A stretch of 64,000 bases of DNA from Arctopsyche grandis (Eukaryota; Arthropoda; Insecta; Trichoptera; Hydropsychidae), in assembly GCF_051622035.1 (NCBI RefSeq), contig NC_135356.1, positions 10,948,579 to 11,012,578 of the forward strand, in the 5' to 3' direction. Position 1 is the first letter of the stretch; each line of letters begins with the position of its first letter. The notes below the pieces were generated by a model. It worked only from the letters and a program-made list of their open reading frames with translations, made no database searches and was not told the origin of the DNA. Below, piece after piece: positions 18,815-64,000 of the stretch. The translations under genes and the position numbers were made by a program.

Positions 18815-19330
18815 GCATATCTAAGTTTCCCATCCGAATTGACGTAATTACTAGTACTCGCCACCGGTGTCGCGTCGATAGCTCACACACACACTCACAC
18901 AAACAGACATAATGTTTACGTTTTTACATTTGACATTTGACGTGTGTCCATTCATACCGCGACATATATAATCCATTCATGAGTCAGTCAGTCAGTCACT
19001 TTTCTTCGAAGCCGCTGATATAGCTGAACGCATATCTAACATCTACTGCCCCTCCTCTATCGTGTCCATCTTTTCTAAAGAATACAAACATAACCCCCTG
19101 GGTTCCACATCAGATGACGGTTTATCCATAAAGCTTTTTGCCGGGATGGATTTCATTGTATGCTGGTCTAACAAATTCAAGGTGGATCGTTTCCACTTCA
19201 TCTTTAATATGGACGGTATCTAAAAGTGAATTCGTCATTTTATAATGAACTTGTTACATCTCATCTACATAAATAAATCGTCGGTAACATTATTTGTTTA
19301 TCTTTGTTACATTGTAAAACATTTTGTATA
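18815..19330 (+). repeat. junction repeat R with an unexplained open frame
   Basis: Left edge of the duplicated unit. It differs from its counterpart at 44710-45230 by six substitutions and one 4-bp indel, whereas the following ~18.7 kb is nearly identical. It contains a CA-rich run and a frame open from 18972 to the TAA at 19221-19223 (84 codons, no early Met), with FEAADIAERISNIYCPSS near the start, a central SDDGLSIKLFAGMDFIV and the end FNMDGI. I do not recognise this protein. An AG acceptor-like site just before it would allow it to be a terminal exon. The frame stays open in both copies. Confidence 0.5.
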
Positions 19331-19343
19331 TGTCATCTATATA

Positions 19344-20060
19344 TTATAATATATATTCAATTGTAAATAGGTTTTTGAGCTCTTTCTCCTTTTTGTTGAT
19401 GAAACTGGATGATGATATACACATAGTGCTGGATCTGCTTGGATCTCGAGTTGTACTCGTACGTGCTGCTAGTTCTGCGTCACGGACTTGCGATGTCACC
19501 GTCACAGGTTGCACCGTTTCCTTTGAAGATTCTATGGTAGATCTGCTCTCTCTGCATACTGTGAATTGGCTCTGCACACTGTCTGCTTTCTTGTCAGTTG
19601 TCCAGTTAGACGTCGGAAGTCTCCGCTTAGAAGATTCTGGTAGTTGGATTTTTCGCTAGATTCGAAAGGATGCAAATCCACCTGGTCCACTTCGAAGTTG
19701 TCTATACAACGGTTGTTCCTTCGTTTTAGTAGTGATGTCCAGTTGTTCAGCTATATCCGCACCCGCTGCCACCAATTTTTATGTTACGGGGACAACTAGG
19801 AGATGGTGTAGAATATTATACATAGTCACAGATTTTGTCATATGATTATATTCTTTAATTAGCAGTAAATATAAACGAGATTAATGTACAAGTTTGTATT
19901 ACAAGTTACTAGTCTCGAAGCGCTAGTTAGGCAGTTTAATCACAATAGTGCCTTGTGAGACTCTGTTTGATCGCAAGTAACTATGTAGTAATCACAAGTT
20001 ACTAGTCGGCAGTTTAATCACAAGACTGTTTGATCGCAAGTGATCAGTTAGAGTGTTTGA
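19344..20060 (-). mobile_element. LTR-element fossil, 5' end, minus strand
   Basis: LTR end (...CCTAGTTGTCCCCGTAACA on the minus strand) followed by a primer-site-like TGGTGGCAGCGGG and leader, running leftwards. The LTR part has a short internal repeat (AAACTGCC and TAACTTGTGATTA). The same LTR end and leader occur in the opposite direction at 24633-24986. Family not certain (Gypsy or Bel/Pao). It is a broken remnant with no polymerase gene. Confidence 0.6.
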
Positions 20061-20099
20061 TCGCAAGTGAGGTTCAATAGATCTAACATGAGCATGATA

Positions 20100-21593
20100 A
20101 GTTTTAACCAATCACAGAATGTTGGTAAATAACAAAGTGATTAAGATACAGAGCAACATCCATGTGTAAGACAGTTTTAATATTTGATTTATGTATCCTT
20201 TGAGAGTATCGAGACATTAATGAGTAGAAACACAATTTATCATAGAGATAAATAGTGATAATAATATTTTAGGGTTTACACGTATCGTGGGACAAAATGC
20301 AGCTATAGCAATAAAGATAACATCATAAGTAGTTAAAAATGAAACGGATGTTCAAACTTAAGGTTAAAGGGTATTATACATAAGTATATACATAGGTTGT
20401 AAGATCGTACCACATAACAATATAATACTATGATTACTAACCAAATAAAATTAAATTGTAAAATAGAAAATGATCAGTAGATCAGTAGATATTAAAATAT
20501 GTAGATATAAGATGTATTGTGAACATAATTTCGTAATAATAAAAAGCATTTAAAAATCAAACCAAATAATATATATTCAAGAATATGTTTATGTATAATG
20601 TGTTGAAAACATAATAAATCATCGTATTTACTGTGCATAAAAGGTTTTTTTTTAATTTTGTCCCTGTAATTTAGATTTAGGTACATATATATTTTAGAAT
20701 TTTTATGTTATGCATTTCAAAGCAGCAAAATCGTAAACTTTGTGTTTGTTTTTAACAATACGGATAATCGTGGTTCTATTGTACATACATATTACTTACT
20801 TATCAATACATTGGTAATTTAATCGGTGATAGTCAGCAACTCAAAACAATATCACTTGTACTATTCCATATTTTTCACTTCTCATATTCAACAATTACTC
20901 AATTTACTCATATTCAACAATTAGCAATGTTTTATATATAAACGAAACATGAAAATATAGGTCTGGTGCATGGATCTTATCTCAAAGCTACGAACTGAAT
21001 TGCTCCCGATGAAATATAAGCGATCAGGCTCGACGGCTGCAGTTTTTGACAGATTAGTGCATGCATGTGGAGGCACCGAGGAGTAGTTACGAAATCCCTC
21101 AGAAGCGTGGAACACACAATAAATAACAATAAGCACAATACATCAATTTGAAATTCAAATATTTTACTTTATTAAGGACATATTGTTACAATAAATATTA
21201 CATCAATTTTGAGATTAGAATATTTGATATTATTCAGAATATAACATTACAATAAATAATAGTTAGCACAATACATCAATTTGAGATTCAAATATTTCAT
21301 TTTAGTAAGGACATATTGTTACATTAAATATTACATCAATTTTGAGATTAAATTATTTATTTTAAACATTTAGTAAATTTCACAAATAAACTTATTTAAT
21401 TTTTGATATTTTTTTTTTTTTTTTAGATAATTTGAAACATTCAATTAAATTAAATCTAAAGAATGTAGTATTTCAGAGCTACCCTTTCTTGTTACATTTC
21501 ACAATTTTCTCAACATACCGAATATACCACCAAGAGGCCAAATGTAACATTACGATTATACAAGTTGAACGTTAAACAAAAATTGCAATGTGT
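20100..21593. other. INTS12 3' flank with a two-copy 133-bp repeat
   Basis: AT-rich DNA downstream of INTS12. At about 21120-21366 a unit of roughly 133 bp occurs twice in tandem; each holds GCACAATACATCAATTTGA, AAGGACATATTGTTACA and ATTACATCAATTTTGAGATT. No coding segment was seen. Part may be the INTS12 3' UTR. Confidence 0.45.
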
Positions 21594-22414
21594 TTATTTT
21601 TTATTCTTTCGCTTATTTTCACGATGCTTGTTCGACTTCTTTTTGACAATCTGAAGCCGCTGATCGCCCGATATGATGTTTTTAGTCGGTGTTACAACCT
21701 TGGGAGGAGTAGGCAGCTCGTCCAACGGGATTTGAGGCGGGGGGCTCACGGAATTGGCTTTTTCCGGAGACATCGAACCGCTGGCAGTCGACGACGAAGG
21801 ACATTCGATCACCATCAGCGGAGAATTAATGCTGCTCGCATTGTCGAAGTCTAGAGCGTCGAGACAAGTCATACACTGCCAGCCAGATTCTGCATCGGTC
21901 TCGCTTATAATTGGACTGTGACACTCCTAGAAAAGTCAAAGGTTGAGTTTCTTTTGTCATGAGATTTAATCAGATGTTTTTACATATATATATTATATTA
22001 TATATATACATATATACATACCTGGTGATAGAGTTTATGGCAGAAATCGCATTCTACAAGCTTGCTGCCTTCTTGTATGGCTAGATGGCGACAGACAGCA
22101 CAGGTGAGCTCCAATTCCAGCAACTCCAGGGAAATCTCATCACAATCACGTTCACGTTCCCTTTCCATTTCCCGATCCATTTCCTTATCTTTCTCCTTTT
22201 CGCGTTCCTTTTCCTTCTCTCGCCCTATATCCAAATATTTCTTCGGCAAGACGTTGGCCATGGTGCGCGATGGATCAATTTTAGCGATCAGCTCATCTAA
22301 AGCTGAACGCAATTGGTCGGTAGAATCGCTGCTCGAAGAGTGCAGCAATCGCAGAGCTTCGCAGATGGTGGGGTCCAGCTTTAAAGCACACATCGTGACG
22401 TCGTAGACTGACAA
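21594..22414 (-). CDS. INTS12: Integrator complex subunit 12 (PHD finger), copy 1
   Basis: Small subunit of the nuclear Integrator complex, which acts on RNA polymerase II transcripts including snRNAs. Two minus-strand exons, 22022-22414 and 21594-21926, join in phase 0 with GT-AG borders to give 241 residues. The N-terminus (LKLDPTICEALRLLHSSSSD) matches the conserved INTS12 segment, which in the fly is known to suffice for snRNA-processing activity and to contact IntS1. A Lys/Glu/Arg-rich stretch covers residues 65-90. The PHD finger is C4HC3 with ligands C105, C108, C122, C125, H130, C133, C149 and C152, split by the intron after CHKLYHQ. The tail is Ser/Pro-rich and ends in basic residues. 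It is shorter than vertebrate INTS12 (about 460) but has the same layout. It is intact, and its second copy at 47493-48313 shows no protein difference. Confidence 0.9.
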
Positions 22415-23286
22415 GCTGTGGCTGACGAGAAACCGACAGTGAAAAAGTTCTGTGTTGCTAGCCGATAAAATATTAACTGAAGGCCAAATGTTTTAATCAA
22501 TACTTCAGTGACCCATATAATGGTCGACTACTGCATGACTTGTACAAAAACCAACTGTTGCTCTTTATTGCGAATCATCACTAGACACGATGTCAATTAA
22601 TCTCACTGCTATTTTATTTAAGACACAACAAAGCAACAGGTGTTTTTCTACAAAATATATTATTTATTTATGAGAATACATGGGGAAGACGGCGGAAGCC
22701 GATAGGTCCACGGGGCCTAATCGCTTAGTATAGATAATGAGATAAAACATTAATATGGTAAAAGACAAAAAAAGTAAACACTATAAAGGATATGACTAGA
22801 GATGATAAAAAACCAGGACCTCTGGAAAAAAAACCGTTTTTAAAAAAACTGTATTTAAAATACAGTTTTTTACATAAAACTGTATTTTTTAATTGAGAAT
22901 GGGGTCGTCCACACACAATATAACGATATTGAAAATAATTTATTACTTTGGATGAAAAAATAAACTCTTTATATCCACGATTTCGAATTCCGAGATCGAC
23001 ATATTTGCCACTTGCATTTCGAACAAACGACAATAACTAATATCCAACTCAAATACAAATTGGACATTTAAAGTACTGCCACTACACGAAAACGTTTAGA
23101 TTCATTCAAGTTGTAGGAATATAGTACAACTTTTACTATACGAAACTAGGTCGATGATATCACCTATTTTCCTCATCGAACTTAAGCTGTACAAATGACA
23201 TCCTGCTCGAACACGAAAGTCATCCGTAGGCATATAGTACAACTGAAATGATCTCATCAGGTCACTGCGACACATACATATCTAGG
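22415..23286. other. INTS12 upstream flank, no gene seen
   Basis: Contains the presumed INTS12 promoter next to 22414 and a small A/T hairpin (about 22835-22890, AAACTGTATTTAAAATACAG type). The stretch GGAAGACGGCGGAAGCCGAT near 22685 looks repeat-derived. No coding segment. Confidence 0.35.
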
Positions 23287-23705
23287 AAAGTCATTAACGC
23301 ATGGCACACGCTCGCCTCGTCAAAAGGTCGACACGTGTTTCTATACACGTATCTGGGAAACAAAGGAAGAACTCACTGAACCCATAAAAACCACGAACTA
23401 CGTCCAGGCGTATGAACCCATAAAACCACGCTCGCAGCATAACTAGGGCAGCGCGAGTACCAAGAACAAAAGATGTGCACACGACACACTTCAACCCAAA
23501 ACGTTTATAAAGCAACGCAGCAACCTCCACCGGCAGAGTGAGCCTCTGGAGTTCAAACAGATCACTTCTCCGAAGAAACCTCTTCGTACATACAATAACC
23601 ATTGTACCAATTGAACAAAAATAAACGATCCTCTTTCAAACTACACAACACGTGTTTCGTTAGACCGGGATACGGTCAACATACCTTCCCTGTCTTACAC
23701 ATCCT
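23287..23705 (+). mobile_element. LTR fossil, type 2
   Basis: LTR-like sequence with a poly(A) signal in AAAATAAACGATCCTC and an end region GTTAGACCGGGATACGGTCA. A reverse-strand relative is split between 35817-35918 and 36701-37180. The uninterrupted sequence here (AATGGTTATTGTATG, reverse strand) serves as the empty site for the Harbinger insertion at 35919-36700. Broken remnant, no internal region recognised. Confidence 0.5.
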
Positions 23706-24625: not shown

Positions 24626-24986
24626 GTCAAACAGTCTTGTGATTAAACTGCCTACTAGTAACTTGTGATTACTACATAGTTACTTGCGATCAAACAGAGT
24701 CTCACAAGGCACTTGTGATTAAACTGCCTAACTAGCACTTCGAGACTAGTAACTTGTAATACAAACTTGTACTAATTAAAGAATATAATCATTTGACAAA
24801 ATCTGTGACTATAATATTCTACACCATCTCCTAGTTGTCCCCGTAACATAAAAATTGGTGGCAGCGGGTGCGGATATAGCTGAACAACTGGACATCACTA
24901 CTAAAACGAAGGAACAACCGTTGTATAGACAACTTCGGAATGGACCAGGTGGATTTTCATCCTTTCGAATCTAGCGATCTTTTCTG
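24626..24986 (+). mobile_element. LTR-element fossil, 5' end, plus strand
   Basis: Plus-strand counterpart of the fossil at 19344-20060: the LTR with AACTGCC / TAACTTG repeats, end CCTAGTTGTCCCCGTAACA, then TGGTGGCAGCGGGTGCGG and a leader cut at about 24986. With the left copy it forms an inverted pair, leaders pointing outwards, around a 4.6-kb segment holding INTS12. Confidence 0.6.
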
Positions 24987-25480
24987 TAGGCTAGGCTAAG
25001 ATAGGCTACAAAAATTACAGAATAGAGCCACGAAGAGTATCTTAGATGCACATAAATAGGTATATTAGTATAAGATCCGTGTTAAAGTATTTAATAAATT
25101 TGATGATACTCTGAAAATATATATGTCGGTTTTTATTTATAAGTTAGATAAGAAAATATTACCTAGGTATTTCGATAGATATTTTATTAGAGGTATGGGG
25201 GAAGGCGAGTGCAACAGTGACGGTGTTGTTTATTCTGACGAAGAGAATGCTTCCCGCAAAACGGTGACTGACCGTGCATCGCATTGGTACTGCCAGAACC
25301 CCGGCGGTCACCACAGAGGGTTACATTTACATAAATATAGCATTAGAGGTAGCAATAAATCACAGAATTTAAAATTAAATAAGAGTAGGAAAAACGTGTA
25401 TGTATGGAAGTGTTGTTACTTATAATAAGCTGCCAGATGAAATTACAAATATACTTGTAATATTGATAAACTTATGGTAG
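24987..25480 (+). mobile_element. LINE 3' fragment with a small insertion
   Basis: Remnant of a CR1/Jockey-group LINE: KLQNRATKSIL at about 25010, then FIYKLDKKILPRYFDRYFIRG (25127-25195), related to the element at 5788-6760. After ATTAGAGGTA a foreign, GC-richer segment of about 150 bp follows, and ATTAGAGGTA recurs at about 25344, so an insertion with a 10-bp target duplication is likely. Several stops and frame breaks; dead. Confidence 0.55.
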
Positions 25481-27185
25481 CTGTAAGGTAACATCTCAAA
25501 CAGTGTGTATGTATCTATGTACATATGTGAATGTATGTGTATATATTATTATTTGTGTGATTGAATATAATTAGTTATTAAGCTTGGCTATATCTTAAAT
25601 AAACAAATAAAACCTTTATTGTTTCAACACTCTACAATCACACATCCTATTCAAATCTAAACTTTCAAATATCATTCTGATTGTATAGATACTCCTTTCA
25701 AAATTTCAAAACTTGTCTACCTAAATCTTGTTTACACAAAACTGCTATTTGGAAAATATAATATAAGCATTTGAGAATAATGGTTATAATTTTTATCATC
25801 TCTTCCTCGTCCCTGTAACAAGCTATTCGCTCCACAAAATAATTTTATTTCTGAAAAGCTCGCCAGCCGCTACACACATATGAATTGTCATCGTAGTATA
25901 TTCTGCTTACAATCTACTATTTCTGCTTTTTAATTTACATGTTATATTTAAGAAAGAAAATAACTGTATCATAATGCAATTTTATAGAGTTATAATTACT
26001 TAAGTATGTTTCGAAATCTTAATTCACTGAAATAAATCCCAATTTATGATTGATCGTGTAAATACAATATGACTCGGAATTCCCAAACATTGGCTATTTT
26101 TTTTTTTTTTTGATGCTTGACCATTTATCGTCCACCTTGATTTTTCGGTTTTAAATTGAAATAAGAGTCAGGTAATTGGGTTTAAATACGGGCCACTCAA
26201 GCAACAGAATAGCATTTATTCATATAAAAGCATTAAAACATAATTTTAATAACATTTAAAACAATCGTAACAAAAAATATATATTCATTAATGTAAAACA
26301 CAAAAAAGACACATGAAATAAGTGATTTCAACATTGAATCATTGAAGAATCACCAAATAAAAAAAAATCAGATGTCTCCGTTCTTCGGTGAATTCTTTTC
26401 ATGAGTTTTAAGACACAATATCGATAATGGACTTTTCGCAAGAGAATAGGTAAAAGACAATGATTAGAACTATTAAATTATTTGAATTAAAAGAGATAAA
26501 CTTTATATGGTGAGTGATTAGCTGATTAATATTTAAGTCATATATGTAATTATGAGAATAACAGAGAATTACACATCTTAAGAAAAATTGCTTTTAACAA
26601 TATAAATAAGTAATAAAGGTAAAACATTATAAACAAACAATATATGTATGTAAAACATTAATTATTTAGAAAAGGTAAAAACATATATACATAATTTAAA
26701 AAATATGAAGATACATACATATATACAAAAAAATTTATGTATCAATTTTAAGTTCTTGTAGAACAATGTGAAAACAAGGTTATAATCTAATCGTGAAATT
26801 TTAGTCAGTTTGGAACTATAAATAAACAATATTTTTATGGAAAACAAAAGTTTAAGCCAGTCTAAGTATTTTCTGCATACCTCTGAACTATTAAATATAA
26901 TAAAGTTTATTTCTGCTTCATGAGATGGGATGAGTTGGAAATAATTATATTTTTAAATAATCTATATAATATCTGTCTATCCACTATTAAAACTCCAATC
27001 ATAGATCCATCTCCAAATCCTTAACAACATTAGTGAGAGCTAAGCGTTCGGCATGAGAATCGGCAGTCACTATATATTTTGGATTTATGTTCCCCAGAAA
27101 TCTTTCAAAAGAGCAAATGCTGAAAAATTCTCAAAAGTTGTTAGACTTTAGTAGTGATAACTGCTAATGGAACAGCGCTGGCTAT
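25481..27185. other. AT-rich intergenic DNA, no gene seen
   Basis: Very AT-rich, with poly(T) near 26100 and short frames without any recognisable domain. Nothing coding or structured can be supported. Confidence 0.35.
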
Positions 27186-27189
27186 ACTT

Positions 27190-27418
27190 TCTCTCCCCGT
27201 ACCGATTCTGAGAAAGGACTAACAACGGTCATTGTTTAGCCTAAATGCACTTAGAGTCCAGATATAATCCTGGAAGTAAGTGCAAGCACTTAGTTAATCC
27301 GTTAATAGATATCCGTTGATCCTAAGTGCAAGCACTTAGTTAATCCGTTAACAGGTAACCCTTGAACGGTCACATAGTTTCTGGGATTCTATTCACTTAA
27401 TCCGCGGCGTACGTAACA
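27190..27418 (-). mobile_element. LTR fossil of the 30350 family, 5' part
   Basis: Minus-strand LTR start: the complement of TGTTACGTACGCCGCGG ends at 27418, and TCATTGTTTAGCCTAAATGC matches the young LTRs in reverse. A 70-bp stretch with AAGTGCAAGCACTTAGTTAA occurs twice in tandem, unlike in the young LTR. Truncated and older than the 30350-33395 element. Confidence 0.6.
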
Positions 27419-27429
27419 ATATTATATGC

Positions 27430-27801
27430 ATATATTATCGCACATATTATAGAAGCCAAAAATATGTGCGATGTTATTATTAAGGATATAAATGAAAAAT
27501 ATACTTTTTCTAATCAAGTAAAAGCTGTGAAATTATTTAATAAAGAAAATTTTGATAATTACTGAAAGAAAATGCCAATGGAAGATCTACTACTAACCGT
27601 TGAATCATATCGAATGCTAGATAAAGAAAAATTTCAAACTGAATTAGAAGGGTTTTACTCAAGGAAAGGAATGCATAGTATTAATATTTTTAAAACTTAT
27701 TTTTGCAATCAATTTATACAAAGTTCGTGTGGAAATAACAAAACTTATTCAAATTCTGCTTATAACTTCAACTACCTCTGAGCTAGAACGGTGTTTTTCA
27801 G
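27430..27801 (+). mobile_element. hAT transposase C-terminal remnant
   Basis: Broken frame with CDVIIKDINEKYTFSNQVKA, then (27572-27781) MEDLLLTVESYRMLDKEKF and LEGFYSRKGMHSINIFKTYF, and in a shifted frame ITSTTSELERCFS at the end. TTSExERxFS is the hallmark of the hAT dimerisation domain, also found in ZMYM1-like hAT derivatives. At least one stop and one frameshift are present. The MITE at 27802 is inserted directly after this motif. Confidence 0.6.
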
Positions 27802-27971
27802 GGTTCGGTGATTACTGGTCACAAAGTCACTAAAATCTCTATAACGGAACATCTGGCAGCCGAAAAGTCCATCATACTAACGATAACTATCATAGTAACG
27901 AGAACTTGATTGCCAAATATTGTGTATTCGCGATTTTCATGGCAAAAATTGTCTTTGTGACCACCCCAATG
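27802..27971 (+). mobile_element. GGTTCGG MITE, copy 3 (right end missing)
   Basis: Begins GGTTCGGTGATTACTGGTCA and follows the family to GTGACCACCCCAATG, then stops short of the usual AATAGTCCAATTA end. It lies in the hAT remnant and its right boundary is truncated. Confidence 0.65.
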
Positions 27972-28695
27972 TCTTTAATATATCTTTAGTGCGATAACAA
28001 ATCCAAAACCGAGCTCCTGAGCTCCCACAACCAACGGCCACAGCCACGAGGGCTTTTGGTTCGAACATCTATAATGTACATCAGTGTTTCTTAACCATAT
28101 TGAAAGAATCGCCCCCTTTACCACAGTAAAAAATTATAAGAAAAACAAATAAAAAACATGATTATTTTTATAAACATTATGTATTAATTGCCATTTATGT
28201 CATATTAACATTACATACATTATAATGTTATTTTAATTTAAAAGTAAATAATTCAATGGAAATGTGAATTTCTAATGTTTCTAATTTCTAAATTTCTTCA
28301 TCCAAAAAGTTTGCCCAGGCCTCTTTTAGAGTACTTTAGAAAAAAAAAGAGTCGCGGTTTGCCGACCTCTGGCTTAGGATGTTTATCAAAACTTTGTTTA
28401 CCAAAACTATCACAATTTCATCCAATAAATTAAAATTATTACATATAAAACAAGTAAGCCAAATAATATATCTGTGTATTTTTCAATTATTATTGCTCTT
28501 AAAATTATTTAAATAAACTGCAATGAGGGGAGCGCCAGAAACATCGTGGCACGCATATAGTCAAAATGTAAGAATATTAACAGTATTTATATGATAACAA
28601 TTTTTTTTATATTTATCCTAGTATGTAATTTATTATGTGACCATAGGATAGATTTTCGAGTAATGATTTTAAACAAATTTCACATTTGTGTGGTT
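27972..28695. other. 3' flank of ZAD gene A, duplicated at gene B
   Basis: AT-rich. From about 28090 it resembles the flank of gene B (40140-40595), for example CTTTGGAC-free TTTGCCCAGGCCTCTTTTAG and GGTTTGCCGACCTCTGGCTT, so the A/B duplication includes this flank. Just after the gene A stop (28623-28695) an out-of-frame finger remnant is still readable on the minus strand (KPHKCEICLKSLLEN). Confidence 0.5.
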
Positions 28696-30244
28696 TTAAC
28701 CAGCATGCAATTTTTTATGTTTCTCAAAATAAGATTTTTTAGTATATGATTTTAGACAAATTTCACACTTGTAAGACGTTTTCCCCGTGTGAGATCTCAA
28801 ATGTATCACAAGTTTATCTTTTCGAATAAATGATTTTAAACAAATATCACATTTGTGTAGTTTTATCCCAGAATGAATTTTTAAATGTGCTTCGAAGCTA
28901 GATTTATGACTTAATGATTTCAGACAAATTTCACACTTGTATGGCTTTTCTCCTGTGTGAGATCTCAAATGACTCACAAGATCATATTTACAAACATATG
29001 ATTTTAAACAAATGTCACATTTGTGTGGTTTTATTCCAGCATGCAATTTTTTATGTTTCTCGAGAGTAGATTTATCAGTAAATGATTTCAGACAAATTTC
29101 ACACTTGTATGACTTTTCCCCCGTGTGAGATCTCAAATGTCTCATAAGTTTACTTTTAGAAATACATAATTTTGAACAAATGTCACATTTATGTGGTTTT
29201 ATCCCATCATGAAATTTATTATTTACCCCCTTGTAAGATCTCAAATGTATCACAAGTTTATCTTTTCGAATAAATGATTTTAAACAAATATCACATTTGT
29301 GTAGTTTTATCCCAGCATGAATTTTTATATGTGCTTCGAGGCTAGATTTATGATTAAATGATTTTTGACAAATTTCACACTTGTATGGCTTTTCCCCCGT
29401 GTGAGATCTCAAATGTCTCACAAGTTCATCTTTACGAACATATGATTTTGAACAAATGTTACATTTGTGTGGTTTGATCCCAGCATGCAATTTTTTATGT
29501 ACCTGGAGGTTAGATTTTTCAGTAAATGATTTTAGACAAATTTCACACTTGTAAGGCTTTTCCCCCGTGTGAGATCTCAAATGTCTCACAAGTTTACTGT
29601 TAGAAATACATGATTTTAAACAAATGTCACATTTATGTGGTTTTATCCCATCATGAAATTTATTATTTCCCCCCTTGTGAGATCTCAAATGTGACACAAG
29701 TCCATTTTTTCGAATAAATGATTTTAAACAAATATCACATTTGAACAGCTTTTCTACAGGATGTGATTTTTGGTGTAAAATAAGTTCAGATTCACTGGGA
29801 AATGACTTTAAGCACGTTTCACTATTTTTAAGGTGAATTGTCGATTGCGAAGACTCATCGTCCCATATGAAATCTTCCAATAAAACTTCTTCAGTCTTGA
29901 TCTTCAAGCAATCGTCTAACCTCAGTTGAGACGATTCGTTGTTTCGAAAACAAGCCTTTCGAAAGCTGATCAACAATTCCAGACTGGTCTTACACGAAAG
30001 ACACACCCTGTCTGGCAATCCATCGCCTCTTTTGACCTGCAGATGGAAAAATAGTAGGATCAAGCGGTGAGAAGAGTAAACCACAATAAGTAATTGTAAC
30101 CTGTAAGCTGTAACCAGCACCGACCTGAATTTGACAGCAGGTCCGAATGCGTTGCTCCAGACGCTCTGGATGAGGATCTGGTCTCTGGAAGATGGAGACG
30201 GAAGATGCGGCCGGAGCTGGTCCAAGACAAAGCCTGCACTCCAT
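28696..30244 (-). CDS. ZAD zinc-finger gene A, 12 fingers, copy 1
   Basis: Putative nuclear DNA-binding protein of 486 residues. Two minus-strand exons: 30125-30244 (40 codons) and 28696-30036, with an 88-bp GT-AG intron. The ZAD domain has ligands C3, C6 (MECRLC) and C52, C55 (VCLSC), a layout typical of insect ZAD proteins. A degenerate finger (ETCLKSFPSESELILHQKSH, first Cys lost) is followed by 12 C2H2 fingers in alternating pairs, HKCDICLKSF...HLRSHTGEKP then YKCEICLKSF...HKKLHAGIKP. One finger ends in Tyr instead of the last His (HLRSY). After fingers 1 and 6 the linker is the odd KGGNNKFHDG or KGVNNKFHDG, apparently a collapsed finger. The C-terminus comes from a one-base loss in a linker. 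An exon-2 frame that runs on upstream to 30342 is not the ZAD start. The young LTR element begins 105 bp upstream. Confidence 0.87.
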
Positions 30245-30349
30245 CGTCTCTGCACTCCATCAACTCTGACAGCAACCACTTGCCACGCCTTGCTGTTTTT
30301 TTTCAGTGGCATATTTGGTCTAAATGGCCGCGTCAAACACATAAGATAT

Positions 30350-30732: not shown

Positions 30733-30972
30733 CTGGTCGTCAGAAGTGGGATCCAAGATGGGCCGTGGAACAAAGTCACCAGCGAAGGAAGAGAAGCTAC
30801 AGCGAAGCCATCCTCGGGAGCTGTAGGAGAGAGTTCGAGCCATGGAGACACGAATTAAAAAAATGCAGTTTTCACTGCAAAACACAGAATCGGTCATCAC
30901 ATATTCGGTTGTTGAATTGCAGTTATCACTGCAACTTGACTTTGACATTATCGGCGGTGGCCGCCAAGAAGT

Positions 30973-32093: not shown

Positions 32094-32100
32094 GTCAACC

Positions 32101-32418: not shown

Positions 32419-32504
32419 ACACGTGAGAAATTTTGGACCGAAGAGCTAACAAATAATGATTTCCAAATGTAAAACATCGGATGACTAATTTTAGGGGATT
32501 AGAA

Positions 32505-50199: not shown

Positions 50200-50214
50200 A
50201 TGTGTCAATGGTAT

Positions 50215-51379: not shown

Positions 51380-53084
51380 CTGTAAGGTAACATCTCAAAC
51401 AGTGTGTATGTATCTATGTACATATGTGAATGTATGTGTATATATTATTATTTGTGTGATTGAATATAATTAGTTATTAAGCTTGGCTATATCTTAAATA
51501 AACAAATAAAACCTTTATTGTTTCAACACTCTACAATCACACATCCTATTCAAATCTAAACTTTCAAATATCATTCTGATTGTATAGATACTCCTTTCAA
51601 AATTTCAAAACTTGTCTACCTAAATCTTGTTTACACAAAACTGCTATTTGGAAAATATAATATAAGCATTTGAGAATAATGGTTATAATTTTTATCATCT
51701 CTTCCTCGTCCCTGTAACAAGCTATTCGCTCCACAAAATAATTTTATTTCTGAAAAGCTCGCCAGCCGCTACACACATATGAATTGTCATCGTAGTATAT
51801 TCTGCTTACAATCTACTATTTCTGCTTTTTAATTTACATGTTATATTTAAGAAAGAAAATAACTGTATCATAATGCAATTTTATAGAGTTATAATTACTT
51901 AAGTATGTTTCGAAATCTTAATTCACTGAAATAAATCCCAATTTATGATTGATCGTGTAAATACAATATGACTCGGAATTCCCAAACATTGGCTATTTTT
52001 TTTTTTTTTTGATGCTTGACCATTTATCGTCCACCTTGATTTTTCGGTTTTAAATTGAAATAAGAGTCAGGTAATTGGGTTTAAATACGGGCCACTCAAG
52101 CAACAGAATAGCATTTATTCATATAAAAGCATTAAAACATAATTTTAATAACATTTAAAACAATCGTAACAAAAAATATATATTCATTAATGTAAAACAC
52201 AAAAAAGACACATGAAATAAGTGATTTCAACATTGAATCATTGAAGAATCACCAAATAAAAAAAAATCAGATGTCTCCGTTCTTCGGTGAATTCTTTTCA
52301 TGAGTTTTAAGACACAATATCGATAATGGACTTTTCGCAAGAGAATAGGTAAAAGACAATGATTAGAACTATTAAATTATTTGAATTAAAAGAGATAAAC
52401 TTTATATGGTGAGTGATTAGCTGATTAATATTTAAGTCATATATGTAATTATGAGAATAACAGAGAATTACACATCTTAAGAAAAATTGCTTTTAACAAT
52501 ATAAATAAGTAATAAAGGTAAAACATTATAAACAAACAATATATGTATGTAAAACATTAATTATTTAGAAAAGGTAAAAACATATATACATAATTTAAAA
52601 AATATGAAGATACATACATATATACAAAAAAATTTATGTATCAATTTTAAGTTCTTGTAGAACAATGTGAAAACAAGGTTATAATCTAATCGTGAAATTT
52701 TAGTCAGTTTGGAACTATAAATAAACAATATTTTTATGGAAAACAAAAGTTTAAGCCAGTCTAAGTATTTTCTGCATACCTCTGAACTATTAAATATAAT
52801 AAAGTTTATTTCTGCTTCATGAGATGGGATGAGTTGGAAATAATTATATTTTTAAATAATCTATATAATATCTGTCTATCCACTATTAAAACTCCAATCA
52901 TAGATCCATCTCCAAATCCTTAACAACATTAGTGAGAGCTAAGCGTTCGGCATGAGAATCGGCAGTCACTATATATTTTGGATTTATGTTCCCCAGAAAT
53001 CTTTCAAAAGAGCAAATGCTGAAAAATTCTCAAAAGTTGTTAGACTTTAGTAGTGATAACTGCTAATGGAACAGCGCTGGCTAT
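51380..53084. other. AT-rich intergenic DNA, copy 2
   Basis: Duplicate of 25481-27185; nothing coding seen. Confidence 0.35.
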
Positions 53085-53088
53085 ACTT

Positions 53089-53317
53089 TCTCTCCCCGTA
53101 CCGATTCTGAGAAAGGACTAACAACGGTCATTGTTTAGCCTAAATGCACTTAGAGTCCAGATATAATCCTGGAAGTAAGTGCAAGCACTTAGTTAATCCG
53201 TTAATAGATATCCGTTGATCCTAAGTGCAAGCACTTAGTTAATCCGTTAACAGGTAACCCTTGAACGGTCACATAGTTTCTGGGATTCTATTCACTTAAT
53301 CCGCGGCGTACGTAACA
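53089..53317 (-). mobile_element. truncated LTR fossil, copy 2
   Basis: Duplicate of 27190-27418. Confidence 0.6.
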
Positions 53318-53328
53318 ATATTATATGC

Positions 53329-53700
53329 ATATATTATCGCACATATTATAGAAGCCAAAAATATGTGCGATGTTATTATTAAGGATATAAATGAAAAATA
53401 TACTTTTTCTAATCAAGTAAAAGCTGTGAAATTATTTAATAAAGAAAATTTTGATAATTACTGAAAGAAAATGCCAATGGAAGATCTACTACTAACCGTT
53501 GAATCATATCGAATGCTAGATAAAGAAAAATTTCAAACTGAATTAGAAGGGTTTTACTCAAGGAAAGGAATGCATAGTATTAATATTTTTAAAACTTATT
53601 TTTGCAATCAATTTATACAAAGTTCGTGTGGAAATAACAAAACTTATTCAAATTCTGCTTATAACTTCAACTACCTCTGAGCTAGAACGGTGTTTTTCAG
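53329..53700 (+). mobile_element. hAT transposase remnant, copy 2
   Basis: Duplicate of 27430-27801 with the same stop and frameshift, ending in TTSELERCFS. Confidence 0.6.
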
Positions 53701-53870
53701 GGTTCGGTGATTACTGGTCACAAAGTCACTAAAATCTCTATAACGGAACATCTGGCAGCCGAAAAGTCCATCATACTAACGATAACTATCATAGTAACGA
53801 GAACTTGATTGCCAAATATTGTGTATTCGCGATTTTCATGGCAAAAATTGTCTTTGTGACCACCCCAATG
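53701..53870 (+). mobile_element. GGTTCGG MITE in hAT remnant, copy 2
   Basis: Duplicate of 27802-27971, right end missing as there. Confidence 0.65.
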
Positions 53871-54594
53871 TCTTTAATATATCTTTAGTGCGATAACAAA
53901 TCCAAAACCGAGCTCCTGAGCTCCCACAACCAACGGCCACAGCCACGAGGGCTTTTGGTTCGAACATCTATAATGTACATCAGTGTTTCTTAACCATATT
54001 GAAAGAATCGCCCCCTTTACCACAGTAAAAAATTATAAGAAAAACAAATAAAAAACATGATTATTTTTATAAACATTATGTATTAATTGCCATTTATGTC
54101 ATATTAACATTACATACATTATAATGTTATTTTAATTTAAAAGTAAATAATTCAATGGAAATGTGAATTTCTAATGTTTCTAATTTCTAAATTTCTTCAT
54201 CCAAAAAGTTTGCCCAGGCCTCTTTTAGAGTACTTTAGAAAAAAAAAGAGTCGCGGTTTGCCGACCTCTGGCTTAGGATGTTTATCAAAACTTTGTTTAC
54301 CAAAACTATCACAATTTCATCCAATAAATTAAAATTATTACATATAAAACAAGTAAGCCAAATAATATATCTGTGTATTTTTCAATTATTATTGCTCTTA
54401 AAATTATTTAAATAAACTGCAATGAGGGGAGCGCCAGAAACATCGTGGCACGCATATAGTCAAAATGTAAGAATATTAACAGTATTTATATGATAACAAT
54501 TTTTTTTATATTTATCCTAGTATGTAATTTATTATGTGACCATAGGATAGATTTTCGAGTAATGATTTTAAACAAATTTCACATTTGTGTGGTT
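53871..54594. other. 3' flank of ZAD gene A, copy 2
   Basis: Duplicate of 27972-28695, including the out-of-frame finger remnant next to the gene. Confidence 0.45.
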
Positions 54595-56143
54595 TTAACC
54601 AGCATGCAATTTTTTATGTTTCTCAAAATAAGATTTTTTAGTATATGATTTTAGACAAATTTCACACTTGTAAGACGTTTTCCCCGTGTGAGATCTCAAA
54701 TGTATCACAAGTTTATCTTTTCGAATAAATGATTTTAAACAAATATCACATTTGTGTAGTTTTATCCCAGAATGAATTTTTAAATGTGCTTCGAAGCTAG
54801 ATTTATGACTTAATGATTTCAGACAAATTTCACACTTGTATGGCTTTTCTCCTGTGTGAGATCTCAAATGACTCACAAGATCATATTTACAAACATATGA
54901 TTTTAAACAAATGTCACATTTGTGTGGTTTTATTCCAGCATGCAATTTTTTATGTTTCTCGAGAGTAGATTTATCAGTAAATGATTTCAGACAAATTTCA
55001 CACTTGTATGACTTTTCCCCCGTGTGAGATCTCAAATGTCTCATAAGTTTACTTTTAGAAATACATAATTTTGAACAAATGTCACATTTATGTGGTTTTA
55101 TCCCATCATGAAATTTATTATTTACCCCCTTGTAAGATCTCAAATGTATCACAAGTTTATCTTTTCGAATAAATGATTTTAAACAAATATCACATTTGTG
55201 TAGTTTTATCCCAGCATGAATTTTTATATGTGCTTCGAGGCTAGATTTATGATTAAATGATTTTTGACAAATTTCACACTTGTATGGCTTTTCCCCCGTG
55301 TGAGATCTCAAATGTCTCACAAGTTCATCTTTACGAACATATGATTTTGAACAAATGTTACATTTGTGTGGTTTGATCCCAGCATGCAATTTTTTATGTA
55401 CCTGGAGGTTAGATTTTTCAGTAAATGATTTTAGACAAATTTCACACTTGTAAGGCTTTTCCCCCGTGTGAGATCTCAAATGTCTCACAAGTTTACTGTT
55501 AGAAATACATGATTTTAAACAAATGTCACATTTATGTGGTTTTATCCCATCATGAAATTTATTATTTCCCCCCTTGTGAGATCTCAAATGTGACACAAGT
55601 CCATTTTTTCGAATAAATGATTTTAAACAAATATCACATTTGAACAGCTTTTCTACAGGATGTGATTTTTGGTGTAAAATAAGTTCAGATTCACTGGGAA
55701 ATGACTTTAAGCACGTTTCACTATTTTTAAGGTGAATTGTCGATTGCGAAGACTCATCGTCCCATATGAAATCTTCCAATAAAACTTCTTCAGTCTTGAT
55801 CTTCAAGCAATCGTCTAACCTCAGTTGAGACGATTCGTTGTTTCGAAAACAAGCCTTTCGAAAGCTGATCAACAATTCCAGACTGGTCTTACACGAAAGA
55901 CACACCCTGTCTGGCAATCCATCGCCTCTTTTGACCTGCAGATGGAAAAATAGTAGGATCAAGCGGTGAGAAGAGTAAACCACAATAAGTAATTGTAACC
56001 TGTAAGCTGTAACCAGCACCGACCTGAATTTGACAGCAGGTCCGAATGCGTTGCTCCAGACGCTCTGGATGAGGATCTGGTCTCTGGAAGATGGAGACGG
56101 AAGATGCGGCCGGAGCTGGTCCAAGACAAAGCCTGCACTCCAT
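54595..56143 (-). CDS. ZAD zinc-finger gene A, copy 2
   Basis: Exons 56024-56143 and 54595-55935, the same 486-residue ZAD protein with 12 fingers as at 28696-30244; no amino-acid difference was noticed. The same LTR element lies 105 bp upstream (56249), so both copies share any effect of that insertion. Together with gene B and the expected second gene B it forms an array of four ZAD genes in one orientation. Confidence 0.86.
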
Positions 56144-56248
56144 CGTCTCTGCACTCCATCAACTCTGACAGCAACCACTTGCCACGCCTTGCTGTTTTTT
56201 TTCAGTGGCATATTTGGTCTAAATGGCCGCGTCAAACACATAAGATAT

Positions 56249-59200
56249 TGTTACGTACGCCGTGGATTGAGCGAATTGTACTTAGACCAACGGATATCTG
56301 TTATCGGTTAACTAAATGCATGCACTTACTTCCAAAGATTATATCTGGACTCTAAGTGCATTTAGGCTAAACAATGACCGTTATTAGTTATTTCTCAGAA
56401 TCGGTATGGGAAGACCCAATCTCTTGGAAATACATATCCGAATACGTGACTATACAACAGGTAAACAGATTAGGCGTCCTGAGAGATCTACCCTTTATAA
56501 GGCGGTACGTAGGCGATATAATTGATTCTGGACTGAGCAGTGGCAATACGTGTATCTCCTGAATCATCAATAAATGCTGTGAAACGACTGTTGGCCTTTT
56601 ACTTGGATCCTCCACCCACCCCTACGCAACACTGGTCGTCAGAAGTGGGATCCAAGATGGGCCGTGGAACAAAGTCACCAGCGAAGGAAGAGAAGCTACA
56701 GCGAAGCCATCCTCGGGAGCTGTAGGAGAGAGTTCGAGCCATGGAGACACGAATTAAAAAAATGCAGTTTTCACTGCAAAACACAGAATCGGTCATCACA
56801 TATTCGGTTGTTGAATTGCAGTTATCACTGCAACTTGACTTTGACATTATCGGCGGTGGCCGCCAAGAAGTCATCGGGATGACGGAAGGAGGTTACGAAA
56901 CGGGAGGTTTCGTACAAGTGCTGCCGGGAGAGGACATCTTGAGGCGTTGTCAAGGGCAACATCGGAGAGCAGCATCCGGCAATTGCAGAGTCATCCAAAG
57001 GGCGACCGGGACGAGTGCAGTTCACCGGTCCACTTTCGCTGCAATTACCAAGAATTAGCGGCTGTTGGGGACGACGATCCACGGGAAAGCATCGTCGTCA
57101 GAAGAGGAGCGGAGATCAGGAATGCGGAGGAGCAAGAATTCATCGGGATGACGGAAGGAGGTTACGAAACGGGAGGTTTCGTACAAGTGCTGCCGGGAGA
57201 GGACAACTTGAGGCGTTGTCAAGGGCAACATCGGAGAGCAGCATCCGGCAATTGCAGAGTCATCCAAAGGGCGACCGGGACGAGGGCAGTTCACCGGTCC
57301 ACTTACGCCGCAAGAACCAAGAATTAGCGGCTATTGGGGACGACGATCCACGGGAAAGCATCGTCGTCAGAAGAGGAGCGGAGATCGACTACAACTGAGA
57401 GATGTCGATTACAAGCCACTATTCCCTTCAACTGTTTGTTGACGGCAGATGTCAACAAACTGGAAAAAAAAACTAGTTGGAAACGAGTCTAATTGGAAAC
57501 TAGTTAACCACCTGTTATGTCACAGGTGTCGTCTCGCAGAGAGTATGAAAGTAAACGGATTGAAACGAGCGACTTGGATCAACCACGTGAGGGCATTTGA
57601 AACCGAAGAAACGCCAGATCGCGACTTCAACGAGAGAGAGCGGAACAATTGATATACGTCAACATCGAAAAAAAATCTAGTTGGAAACTAGTGGAAACAC
57701 GAGTACCTGAAAAAATACATGGACAGTTGCAGCAGTGATTAGATCATCTCGCAGATGTAACGGGAAAATACATCAGAAAGAAATGGATTTCAGTTGGGTC
57801 AATGGAACGGAAAAGAAGCACATTCAACAGAGTGGCAGACTGTTGGGTGCACATTTACCAAGGTCAATGGAACGGAAAAGAAACACAACCAGCAGAGTGG
57901 CAGACTGAGGTGTGCACATTTTCCAGGGTCAAGGGAACGGAAAAGAAGCACCACCAACAGAGTGGCAGACTGAGGGGTGCACATTTTCCAGGGTCAACCG
58001 TCACTTTAGTGAGGATGGTGGCGATTCTTGTGGGACATGGCTTTGGAGCACGTTCTGGGTTGAACGCTGGTCTGCAGCAGGATGCTGGGCCACATGACAG
58101 AGGAACACTAGGCCACCGTAGCAAATTTGGACGATGGTGACACGAGAGCAATGGACCAAGTCACTTTTGTGAAGATAGGAGCGATTCTTGTGGGACATGG
58201 CTTTGGAGCACGTTCTGGGTTGAACGTTGGTCTGCAGCAGGATGCTGGGCCACATGACAGGAATACGGGGCTGCCATAGCAAATTTGGACTTTGGTGATA
58301 CGAGCAACATGGACCAAACACGTGAGAAATTTTGGACCGAAGAGCTAACAAATAATGATTTCCAAATGTAAAACATCGGATGACTAATTTTAGGGGATTA
58401 GAAAGTTCACTGTAATTGTTTCCATTGTAAAGGTGACGTAAATTGAAATGTAACGAAAGTTTAATGCAATTGTTTCCATTGTAAAGGTGACGTAAAGTGA
58501 AGTGTAATGAAAGTTTAATGTAATTGTTTCCAATGTCAAGGTGACGTAAATTGAAGTGTAACGAAAGTTTAATGTAATTGTTTTCATTGTAAAGGTGACG
58601 TAAATCGTAGTGTAACGAAATTTTAAATGTTTTTGTTTACATTGTAAAGGTGACGTAAATTGAAGTTTAACGAAGGTTTAATGTAATTGTTTCAATTGTA
58701 AAGGTGACGTTAATCTAACTGTAACAGAATTAGAATTGTAAAGGTAACGGTAGTAGAATTTAAATGTCATTGTTTCCATTGTAGCTGTAAAGATAACGGC
58801 TGTAATTGTAAATGTAACTGTGACTGATATCGGAGATAAATGCAACTGCTGTAGATTTATCAGTTATGATTTGTTGGTCAATCGGGACGATTTAACCTAA
58901 GAGGGAGGCAATGTTACGTACCCCGTGGATTGAGCGAATTGTACTTAGACCAACAGATATCTGTTATCGGTTAACTAAATGCATGCACTTACTTCCAAAG
59001 ATTATATCTGGACTCTAAGTGCATTTAGGCTAAACAATGACCGTTATTAGTTATTTCTCAGAATCGGTATGGGAAAACCCAATCTCTTGGAAATACATAT
59101 CCGAATACGTGACTATACAACAGGTAAACAGATTAGGCGTCCTGAGAGATCTACCCTTTATAAGGCGGTACGTAGGCGATATAATTGATTCTGGACTGAG

Positions 59201-59294
59201 CAGTGGCAATACGTGTATCTCCTGAATCATCAATAAATGCTGTGAAACGACTGTTGGCCTTTTACTTGGATCCTCCACCCACCCCGACGCAACA
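56249..59294 (+). mobile_element. non-autonomous LTR retrotransposon, copy 2
   Basis: Duplicate of 30350-33395 with LTRs at 56249-56631 and 58912-59294, ATAT on both sides, and the same four internal arrays (56872-57387, 57798-57992, 58000-58317, 58404-58734). Shared target site shows it was copied with the segment and did not transpose separately. Confidence 0.85.
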
Positions 59295-59306
59295 ATATCA
59301 ACGAAC

Positions 59307-60085
59307 GGTTCGGTGATTACTAGTCATATGTGAACCTGTCACAGGACAACTGGTCGCTCTAGATCGGTCACTCGTGATCATCTGTCACGCTAAAACTGGT
59401 CACACGCTAAAATTGGTCACGAGAACACTGGTCACACGCTAAAACTGGTCGCGAGAAAACTGGTCGCGAGAAAACTGGTCACGAGAAAACTGGTTACACG
59501 CTAAAGCTGGTCACGAGAAAATAAGTCACACGCTAAAACTGGTCACGAGAAAATTGGTCACACGCTAAAACTGGTCACGAAAAAACTGGCCAAGGGACAA
59601 AAAGATACATATAATTACTATTGTAACAAGTGAACATAAATAAAGGATCCTCTTACTAACACAATCAGTGTTTTCATAGACCTCCCGCGGTACATTTACC
59701 GCGGTGAATTAAGATTAGTGATTTGACATTCGAACTGTCAAAGTGAAATGAACGCAAAAGTGATTGCCAACCTTCTCGGCGTGGCTAGAGTGCGTCAGAT
59801 GAGCTGACAGATGCCCGCGAACTCCTCGCGAAGACCACAACGACGGCCACGAGGGTCTTTGGCTCGAACATATGTCTAGTCGATAGTAATAAAAATTTCG
59901 TAAATAAAAAGTATTTGAGAATATTTTGGTTTGTGACCAATTTTAAATTTTTGGGTATGACCAGTTTTAGCGTGTGACTAGTTTTCTCGTGACCAGTTTT
60001 AGCGTGACGGATGATCACGAGTGACCGATCTAGAGCGACCAGTTGTCCTGTGACAGGTTCACATTTGACTAGTAGTCCGCTTACC
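59307..60085. mobile_element. 779-bp TIR element with minisatellite, copy 2
   Basis: Duplicate of 33408-34186, with the same CAACGAAC target duplication; the minisatellite (59414-59589) has not visibly changed length. Confidence 0.8.
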
Positions 60086-60438
60086 CAACGAACGATATTT
60101 CTAGGTCTAGTAATACCGTGAATAGTACGCGTGGCACCGTTTACACTAGCGATATCTACACCGATATTTACGAAATTTGCCATAACCAGTTCCCAAATAT
60201 CAACCATAGGTTGCAATATGGGAACTGGATATGGAAAATTTCGTACATATCGCCGGTAAATAGCGCCATTATGAGTGCGTTAGCACCCGCGATTTATACC
60301 TCGTTTACTGCCGTTGCACCTTGGTTTACTGCTAGTACCTGGGGGGTTCAGCTTAACAAAAATGAGGTTAGGCACACAAACGTCAATTGACACCAACAAA
60401 AACCTAAATTATTTTTATGTACAAAGTATCTGTTTTAA

Positions 60439-61605
60439 GGTCTGTTCATACCTATCCAGCACGACCTATATCCTGCAGGTGTCATGCAAGTGCGGATAGT
60501 ATTTTTTGGTACATTATATGGACGTATTCATACTCCATTCGCGCATGCGCATTTATGCATTCATGCGCGTCCATATATGTAGAATGTACCAAAGAATACT
60601 ATCCGCACTTGCATAATGGTGCTTACGGACTAAACCAACGACGATTTTGGGCCAACTTTTTAACCAGCAGTAGCGTACAAAATATCGAAATAAAAATTAA
60701 ATTTTAAAATTGAAATTAAATATCAAAATCAAGCTAAAGAGCGAGATTGAGCTAAAATTAGATCATCGTTGATGTTTTGAATTACAACAATGTTTTGAAT
60801 TACGACGATGCGCATTTAAAACCAGAGAAATATTATAATTTCTCTGCTTACGAGCGAAAAAAAAAATATTGTTAAAGTCGTCACGAGATGCTACTGTATT
60901 TCTACCGTCAACGATCGATAACAAAAAACAATTCATAAAAAAACGCGGTGTCGGATGTCGGTGATTTGTCAAAGGGTTTTTTTTCTTTCGTCGAAATAAA
61001 ATTAATAATCACACATTATCCGATAAAATTTACCTCTGAAATGATTTAATTAATTGATTTATTTCGACGAGAGAAACAATTGAAGACTAAAAAAATTTCG
61101 TTTGATAAACCGACAACATACCGGGTTGGGACCATCGCTCGGTCACCCATACTTATACATGAGATATTCTCAGTAACTGCGCATTACGGGGAACTAAAAA
61201 TAATAATTCTTTGATTTTTTTTTCGATCTTAGTGCGTATCTTCGTAAGTCAAAACATCTTCGACAAACAAAAGTCGAGGATTACCTGTATGTGATTGTTG
61301 ATGATCTAATTTTAGGTCAATCTCGAAAATTTATTTAAATTGGGCATGTTCTGTTTTAACTTTCAATATTTTATTTTAATTTTAATATATTGATTATAAT
61401 TTTATTTTGATATTTGAATTAAATTTTAATATAATAATAATATTTTTAATTTCAATTTTTAAATTTAATTTTTATTTCGATATTTTGTACGCTACTGGTT
61501 TTATCCTGCTGGTTAAAACGTTGGACCAAAATCGTCGTTGGTTTGGTCCGTACGCAGCATAACACTTGCAGGATACGGGTCGTGCTGGATAGGTATGAAC
61601 AGACC
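60439..61605. mobile_element. 1.17-kb TIR element, copy 2
   Basis: Duplicate of 34540-35706 including the nested palindrome. Confidence 0.7.
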
Positions 61606-61715
61606 TTTAAGAGTTCAAATAAATTAATACAACTTTGTAATAAGTATAATCGATCTGTAATTTCTGCGTAAGCTGTTTATTTTTCGCGCTTAGAAGGGTA
61701 CGCGCGAGACTACTG

Positions 61716-63079
61716 TAAGGCAGGGAAGGTATGTTGACCGTATCCCGGCCCAACCAAACACATGTTGTGTGGTTTGAAAGAGGATCGTTTATTTTTGTTC
61801 AATTGGTACAATGGTTAAGCGGGCTCCACATTCTCGTCGAGACTCTCGGTCTCGGGTCTCGCCGAAACAACACGAGACTGAAAGTAGCTCACCACATTCT
61901 CGCTCGCGCATTTGTCTGTTCGGTAGTCATACAAGATGGACGTGTTAGAAACGTCTGTCGCTGTAGCATTATGTGCAATAGCATATTACAATTTTTTATT
62001 AATTCGAGAAAAAATAGTTATTAAGAGAGGTTGGAATGTTTTATTACTGTTGCCATCCATGATATCCCCCAAAAAAGAATCCATCACGCTAAAAGCGAAC
62101 CATATCGGCGTATATACATATATCATCAGTGCCGGCGCCTGAATGTTCCGATGCTTTTATTCTTCGCTTTTGTATCCTATAAGTTGTCATAAGGGAGTCT
62201 TTCTTGCTTTTCAATTCTTTGAGAGGTATATTCATTATTTCACTTATTTTATTCCACGCATCGTGTACTTTGTTTCTGTCTTTATGGTCCCGATAATAGG
62301 ATGACACTGGTATATTTCCATAAATGTTAGTTCGAGATCGTGCGTCCAATTCGTAGGCATTTTTGTTAATAAAATCGACGAGCGCGCAGTGCGGTTACTG
62401 GCGGCCGACTGACGCGACGGGAGTGTGGAGGGAAGGTCTCGTGCGAACACAAAACTACACGAGAGCCCTTTGATTCGGGTCCAAAATACCGCCACGAAAT
62501 GGAGACCGCACGAATATAGGCGGGACTTAACGAATATGTTCACTTCACTCTCGTATTTGGCTATTCTCGTATAGTTTTGCCGAGATTGTGGAGCGGGCTT
62601 TATTGTATGTACGAAGAAGTTTCTTCGGAGATGTGATATAGTTGAACTCTAAAGGCTCACTCTGCTGGCTAGAGTTGCTGCGTTGCTTTATATACATTTC
62701 CAGGACACGTGTCGTGTCTTTGTTCTCGAGACGTGCAATGACCTGGTTTCGGGCACGTGTACTTGTGACACGTGTTGAGCGCAGAAGCTTTGTTTTTGGT
62801 ACTCGTGGTTTTTATGGGTTCGTGCGCCTGGACGTCGTTCGTGGGGTAATGGGGTCGTGCGCCGTGTGTCTACGGTGCACCGACCTCTTTATGAGGCGAT
62901 CTACTTTTCTGGATATGTGCCGCAGTGGCCTGATGAGATTGTGGCGGCTCGCTTATACGACATGGTCGAGTTTGGTTGCCTTCCTGCGAGTGGGGACCAA
63001 CCCGGCTGGGTTCGGAGAGCCACTACTCACTCTGTCTTCAGCTGTCATATAATAAACACGTGCATTAACATGCCAGTCG
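61716..63079 (-). mobile_element. LTR fossil, type 2 with Harbinger insert, copy 2
   Basis: Duplicate of 35817-37180. Confidence 0.5.
61818..62599 (-). mobile_element. PIF/Harbinger-type MADF element, copy 2
   Basis: Duplicate of 35919-36700 with the same TTA borders and the same broken MADF frames (62089-62349 and 62244-62379). Confidence 0.72.
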
Positions 63080-63138
63080 TCTCATTCGTTCATCCCCCAT
63101 AAGATCATATAGCATGAGTTTTACTATATGCCTACATT

Positions 63139-63439
63139 ACTTTGCGAAAGATGGACATGGACATGAGAAGAAAAGCGGCTTTGGCGATCATACTCGAGGA
63201 TGCGTTGAGGACGCCCAAAAGTAAAAGGCGGTGGATTAAGCAGTGGATGCTTCATTGCTTCAGAAGAATCGATATTCACACTTGAATATCGCTGAAGAAA
63301 TGGTTCTAGGCGATGTCATGAACGATAACCAGAACCTTTTTAGAATGAGTGAAGATTTGTTTGATTCATTGCTAATATACACCGAGGGAGAAACTTGCCG
63401 TAACATTACGGTACCTTGCAACTGGCAGTAGTTTCACGT
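63139..63439 (+). mobile_element. Harbinger transposase remnant, copy 2
   Basis: Duplicate of 37240-37540. One base differs (63398), giving ETCRNI instead of ETYRNI in the short frame. Confidence 0.6.
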
Positions 63440-64000
63440 GCTTGAGATATTCCAGTTTTCTTTCGACGTCTACTATAAGTGAAGCTGTTATTTCCATATG
63501 CAGAGCATTAAGTCACGTTCTCAAGAAGTATATAAAGGTAAAAATAAAAATCAAAGTAATATAAAAACCGTATTATTTCAATGTTCTTAAAGACTAAGTA
63601 ATTTTAATAAGGAACGGGATATAAATTAAGATTATATATTTACAGTGGGATGCTGATTTAAGGGAATTACATCGTCATGAAGAAATTTGAAAGATTTTAC
63701 AACACCCTTAATACGGAATAAAAAAGACGTCTTAATGTGAAACATAAAGGAGGTTTGTAAAAATTCGACAAACTGGTGGTTTTTTGATCAATGTAAACAA
63801 ACATTTTCAATCATGAATATCAATAAAAATTCTTTACAATCAAGCATCAGATGAAAAATTTTTAAGAATTTCAGCATTTTTAAGAATTTCAACTACAAAA
63901 TTTTCTCCGAAAATTAAAAAACTGTTAAAGATGTAGAGTTCGATCGCCGAGAAAGAAAAATTGCTTCAGTATTGGAAACTACCGGTTGACTGCAAGGTAT
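63440..64000. other. AT-rich spacer, copy 2, to window end
   Basis: Duplicate of 37541-38101; no gene. The duplication continues unbroken to the last base. Confidence 0.4.

Follow-up and report, generated by a model that had tools for sequence, protein, structure and literature searches.

The window, a 64,000-nucleotide stretch of the contig C2 (C2:10948579-11012578, in a genome of 475.7 Mb in 189 contigs), contains a tandem duplication that extends beyond its right end and was probably produced, as a real event, by a crossover between direct repeats. When the window was aligned to itself together with 30 kb of sequence on its left and 96 kb on its right, and the repeats were compared in a three-way alignment, the layout in the assembly was A1-B-A2-B-A3, where A denotes a repeat of 4.9 kb that carries an intact INTS12-like gene, and B a segment of ~21 kb with two ZAD-ZNF genes. 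We infer that this arrangement is physically real, that it originated by crossover and that it brought a local gain of INTS12-like genes from two to three and of each ZAD-ZNF gene from one to two. The original prediction of a very recent tandem duplication with INTS12 and ZAD-ZNF genes is supported, except that the gene taken for INTS12 is a paralogue of the INTS12-like kind, and INTS12 itself lies intact at another locus, on C1. It missed the extent of the array, which includes the 4.9-kb bounding repeats and a third, partial copy, as well as its probable cause, to which the crossover-type hybrid at the seam points.

Architecture of the duplicated block

Copy 1 of the unit spans positions 18815-44709 (the left edge was set by local alignment), and copy 2 spans 44710-70608 and extends past the window end. 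As had been claimed, copy 2 begins where copy 1 stops, 44710 being the base that follows copy 1. The left direct repeat A1 (18815-23699; self-alignment and three-way alignment) opens copy 1 and is followed by the first copy of B (23700-44709; self-alignment), which is ~21 kb long and carries the two ZAD-ZNF genes and repeats. Next is the seam repeat A2 (44710-49598). The second copy of B (49599-64000) is cut by the window end and continues to 70608, as indicated by self-alignment and the neighboring sequence, in which ZAD-ZNF gene B recurs at 66495-69506, very close to the predicted 66.5-69.5 kb. Outside the window, from 70609 to ~75530, lies A3, a third and partial copy corresponding to the first 4.9 kb of the unit, which aligned in two pieces with 99.6% and 99.2% identity. 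Direct repeats in the same orientation are therefore present at both ends of the unit, A1 at 18815 and A3 at 70609.

The match between copies 1 and 2 is far beyond chance. At an offset of 25,899, the identity per 500-bp bin is 24-36% as far as 19.0 kb, beyond which it rises to 99.4-100% for the rest of the window, in agreement with the earlier observation that elements recur at this offset from ~19.3 kb. One base difference had been noticed in ~18.7 kb of the window; the alignment shows a sole mismatch after 19326, at position 37498, and this is also the only one in the 25,383 bp of the complete comparison (19327-44709). The first part of the unit (18815-19326) differs between the copies by six SNPs and one 4-bp indel. 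The reported lack of a net length change holds from ~18.96 kb on, but not further to the left, where this indel is located.

The seam repeat A2 as a probable hybrid

A2 is best read, from its alignment with A1 and A3, as a hybrid that consists of A3 on the left and A1 on the right. The three-way alignment of A yielded 14 events that distinguish A1 from A3, comprising 11 SNPs and three indels of 4, 2 and 31 bp. In A1 coordinates, A2 has the A3 state at the seven events on the left (18948, 18954, 18983, 18995, 19098, 19121 and 19326) and the A1 state at the seven on the right (21983, 22056, 22060, 22257, 22437, 22844 and 23282), with only one switch, from A3-type to A1-type; given the 7:7 split, the chance of such an ordering is 2.9e-4. 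Between the two groups of events lies a tract of 2,656 bp (19327-21982, equivalent to 45226-47881 in A2) that is exactly identical in A1, A2 and A3. It is the longest perfect match between A1 and A3, and the exchange would have occurred within it. Overall, A1 and A3 diverge by 0.23% (11 SNPs in ~4,885 bp), and this pair is older than the duplication that produced copies 1 and 2. Under even spacing of the 11 SNPs, a difference-free tract of 2,656 bp has a chance of 1.8e-4, and the absence of A1/A3 differences from the tract suggests earlier conversion between A1 and A3.

Paralogous loci on C2 served as outgroups to polarize the differences between A1 and A3, with several of the aligned rows representing overlapping loci of one place. 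A polarity could be given to four of the seven left sites (18948, 18995, 19098 and 19121), and an outgroup reading was used at right sites 22056, 22060, 22257 and 22437. At 22437, T is present at all seven paralogous loci and C in A1 and A2, so A2 carries a change that was made in A1. The outgroups also suggest, less firmly, that A2 shares changes of the A3 side: at 19121 the A1 base is found in four of five distinct places, with C in A2, A3 and the fifth place, and at 18995 it is found in the sole alignable place (8.97 Mb), with C common to A2 and A3. The ancestral base is that of A2 and A3 at 18948 (all rows) and at 19098 (6/7 rows, several of them overlapping). At 22056, 22060 and 22257 (7/7 loci each), the change took place only in A3, and these sites show no more than that A2 is unlike A3 there. 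A2 would then be a hybrid with derived alleles of both parents, for which the A1 side is firm (seven of seven loci) and the A3 side weaker (four of five places and one locus, respectively). That A2 is simply ancestral is disfavored by the A1-derived base at 22437 and, at 18995 and 19121, by bases that are probably A3-derived.

Proposed crossover between direct repeats and alternative explanations

In the proposed mechanism, the starting chromosome would have had the structure A1-B-A3, in which ~21 kb of ZAD-ZNF genes and transposon debris lay between two direct 4.9-kb repeats, each with one INTS12-like gene. Sister chromatids or homologues would have misaligned at A1 and A3, and an exchange inside the longest perfect match between them (non-allelic homologous recombination, NAHR) would have given the product A1-B-A2-B-A3, with A2 as a left-A3/right-A1 hybrid. 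This mechanism is supported by the coincidence of the unit edges with the direct repeats, by the single switch in A2 from seven A3-type to seven A1-type events, by the derived base that A2 has in common with A1 and, less securely, those it has in common with A3, and by the position of the inferred exchange in the longest perfect A1/A3 match. Direct flanking repeats, a hybrid seam repeat and an exchange in the longest perfect match are the textbook signature of NAHR. The driver appears to be recombination between the flanking INTS12-bearing repeats, and nothing special to the ZAD-ZNF genes, because the 4.9-kb repeats bound the unit and the seam is a hybrid.

A real duplication could also have been made by replication template switching or end joining, with A2 turned into a mosaic by later gene conversion. 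Conversion between the A copies is plausible in view of the 2,656-bp tract that lacks A1/A3 differences, but a seam placed precisely at the long direct repeats is what NAHR predicts, and a single clean switch would need to have been imitated by conversion. We consider this route very improbable.

The layout could, alternatively, be an assembly artefact, in which the true sequence is A1-B-A3 and either a repeat-graph loop passed through A twice or two haplotypes were stitched at A. A loop of this kind would produce an identical layout, hybrid A2 included, and the single SNP could represent a heterozygous site. We nevertheless regard an artefact as unlikely. No N is present in 18815-75530 (ungapped contig joins would not show), and the copies diverge by only 4e-5, which is far under the heterozygosities of 0.1-1.6% given for haplotype-type false duplications in a published account (PMC8081667). 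The left flank had one full-length match among 40 candidates scored, and the same was true of the right flank from 1.4 kb beyond A3; the seam segment is present in full exactly twice, likewise among 40 scored candidates. Common long reads would also span the 14 A1/A3 events in 4.9 kb, depending on the read type used. An uncollapsed haplotype and a misjoin, which had both been raised with the original prediction, are weakened by the gapless array, the apparently single-copy flanks and the very low divergence; as the main reading, an uncollapsed haplotype is less likely given this divergence and the one full-length match per flank among the scored candidates. The crossover product may be heterozygous in the sequenced individual.

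Age of the duplication

At mutation rates of 2.9, 3.6 and 6.8e-9 per site per generation, one difference in 25,383 bp corresponds to 6,792, 5,472 and 2,897 generations, respectively, with 95% limits of 73 to 37,845 generations over the three rates. Later gene conversion between the copies would hide a greater age. At the differing position, 37498, copy 2 has the ancestral base, which it shares with two related sequences (2/2), one at C2:12.37 Mb and the other at C3:3.89 Mb. The new base is therefore either a change in copy 1 or an allele. The stretch that holds this SNP is presumably HARBI1-like; a Pfam search with the fragment around it gave no match. Between 19326, the last marker that differs between the copies on the left, and 37498 there is a difference-free run of 18,172 bp, and ordinary reads may therefore not link the two.

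Composition of the A and B segments

Repeat A opens with a dispersed element of ~381 bp (18815-19195), whose left end is fixed and for which five distinct left flanks were seen among the six places shown. Its right boundary is that of a 474-bp insertion (23226-23699). The insertion has an empty site in the 12.38-Mb copy and is flanked in A1 by a 5-bp target-site duplication (23221-23225 and 23700-23704). A3 stops at the right end of the same insertion. A may be a single mobile element, but no target-site duplication was seen around A as a whole. Segment B contains transposon-like remnants, including a MADF-like fragment. Repeats of B at 24976-27195 and 30347-33406 have ~92-99% matches on several other contigs and are probably young transposable elements. 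The matches from the genome search with the whole of B did not include the window's own copies, so absence from these matches carries no weight.

The unit itself is part of an older segmental duplication. All of 27300-30300 has a 98% inverted match at C2:12374940-12377952, where further pieces of A and B are found nearby, and ZAD-ZNF gene A is present there with 98% identity over 3 kb. The surrounding region, C2:12.353-12.388 Mb, which lies ~1.4 Mb away, is paralogous in inverted orientation to a large part of the A-B unit, with ~95-99% identity in the matched pieces.

INTS12-like genes

The INTS12-like gene of A1 (within 21594-22492, minus strand) has two exons of 372 and 333 bp, which are separated by a 95-bp GT-AG intron, and encodes a PHD finger (PF00628, 33.9 bits). 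The gene of A2 (47493-48391, minus strand) has an identical coding sequence (exons 100%). The best PDB match of the protein is 1wev, which we take to be Phf22/INTS12. The canonical, intact two-exon INTS12 is located at C1:30.506 Mb. Elsewhere in C1, a nuclear contig, a COX1 frame at 36084329-36085669 stays open when read with the invertebrate mitochondrial code (11 TGA). It looks like an insect sequence and is either a recent insertion of mitochondrial DNA into the nuclear genome or a mitochondrial fragment that was misplaced.

When all 121 candidates were scored, the second exon of the INTS12-like gene was found at at least 32 loci on C2, 25 of the 32 falling between 38.87 and 39.45 Mb, in an array of ~0.6 Mb near the contig end; outside C2, the same candidates included only the C1 gene and one weak match on C12 (28 bits). 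The 14 C2 copies that were inspected form a sample whose intact set is biased, as it was drawn from the best matches. Both exons are intact, with splice sites, in ten of ten copies from the A1-B-A2-B-A3 array and the best genome matches. In all four of the others, which come from 38.88-39.40 Mb, the linker has been lost together with a portion of the PHD coding region. Within the 38.87-39.45 Mb array, three inspected copies are intact and four degraded. Equally scoring matches in this array are found again at intervals of, for example, 346-353 kb, suggesting larger duplications. C2 starts with (TAACC)n, a TTAGG-type telomere repeat; its last 1.6 kb hold no such repeat but a CA repeat and sequence that resembles the INTS12 array, and this end is probably incomplete.

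Among seven distinct C2 copies, dN/dS ranges from 0.45 to 2.5 (20 of 21 pairs where defined), values that are compatible with weak constraint and give no evidence of selection either way. A more far-reaching reading, which we hold to be quite unlikely, is that the INTS12-like family is actively expanding and chromosome-restricted on C2, with genetic conflict or selection on Integrator dosage as possible drivers, that its copies act as recombination substrates through which ZAD-ZNF genes are multiplied as well, and that the tandem duplication, perhaps polymorphic to this day, represents the most recent step of the expansion. The near-restriction of the family to one chromosome is the less usual part of the locus, and an amplified Integrator-subunit paralogue with this distribution is what a specialist may want to follow. 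No paper on INTS12 gene duplication in insects was found in the open-licence literature.

ZAD-ZNF genes

Both ZAD-ZNF genes of B were recognized with Pfam and lie on the minus strand. In gene A (28696-30244), the ZAD is split by a short intron, and a 548-aa frame contains 11 strict C2H2 fingers; gene B (40596-43607) has 30 such fingers in a frame of 1003 aa. The ZAD domain (PF07776) scored 50.6 bits (cut-off 28) in both of the two spliced N-termini. The second copy of gene A (54595-56143, minus strand) lies at the offset of 25,899 with no mismatch in the stretch. A related ZAD-ZNF cluster at C3:3.85-3.99 Mb is densely packed with relatives of genes A and B, with 79-97% identity in pieces, and is a likely source of segment B.

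Comparison with known systems

The literature search on NAHR in insects gave no insect match and one stickleback preprint instead. As in known NAHR tandem duplications, direct repeats are found here at the unit ends, the seam is a hybrid and the inferred exchange lies in the longest perfect match. Nothing essential differs, although the repeats here carry an INTS12-like gene. NAHR tandem duplication is a known mechanism, of which the locus is a clean new example. It records a single unequal crossover with unusual clarity, at a stage when the copies had yet to diverge; the exchange point can be placed within 2.7 kb, and paralogues are available to polarize some of the alleles. It also illustrates how repeats that carry a gene can, as a family, prime adjacent transcription-factor genes for changes in copy number.

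The C2 genes share with INTS12 (Integrator subunit 12/PHF22) the two exons, the PHD finger, a related N-terminal block and a lysine-rich C-terminus. However, the C2 form is multi-copy, and its dN relative to the canonical gene on C1 is ~0.27-0.29, dS being saturated. The ZAD-ZNF genes have the same ZAD and C2H2 arrays as the genes of insect ZAD-ZNF clusters; for Drosophila, one study describes rapid turnover of this family and clusters that likely arose from segmental duplication (PMC7655104). In contrast to such clusters, the duplicating agent at this locus would be the flanking INTS12-bearing repeat rather than similarity between the ZAD-ZNF genes.
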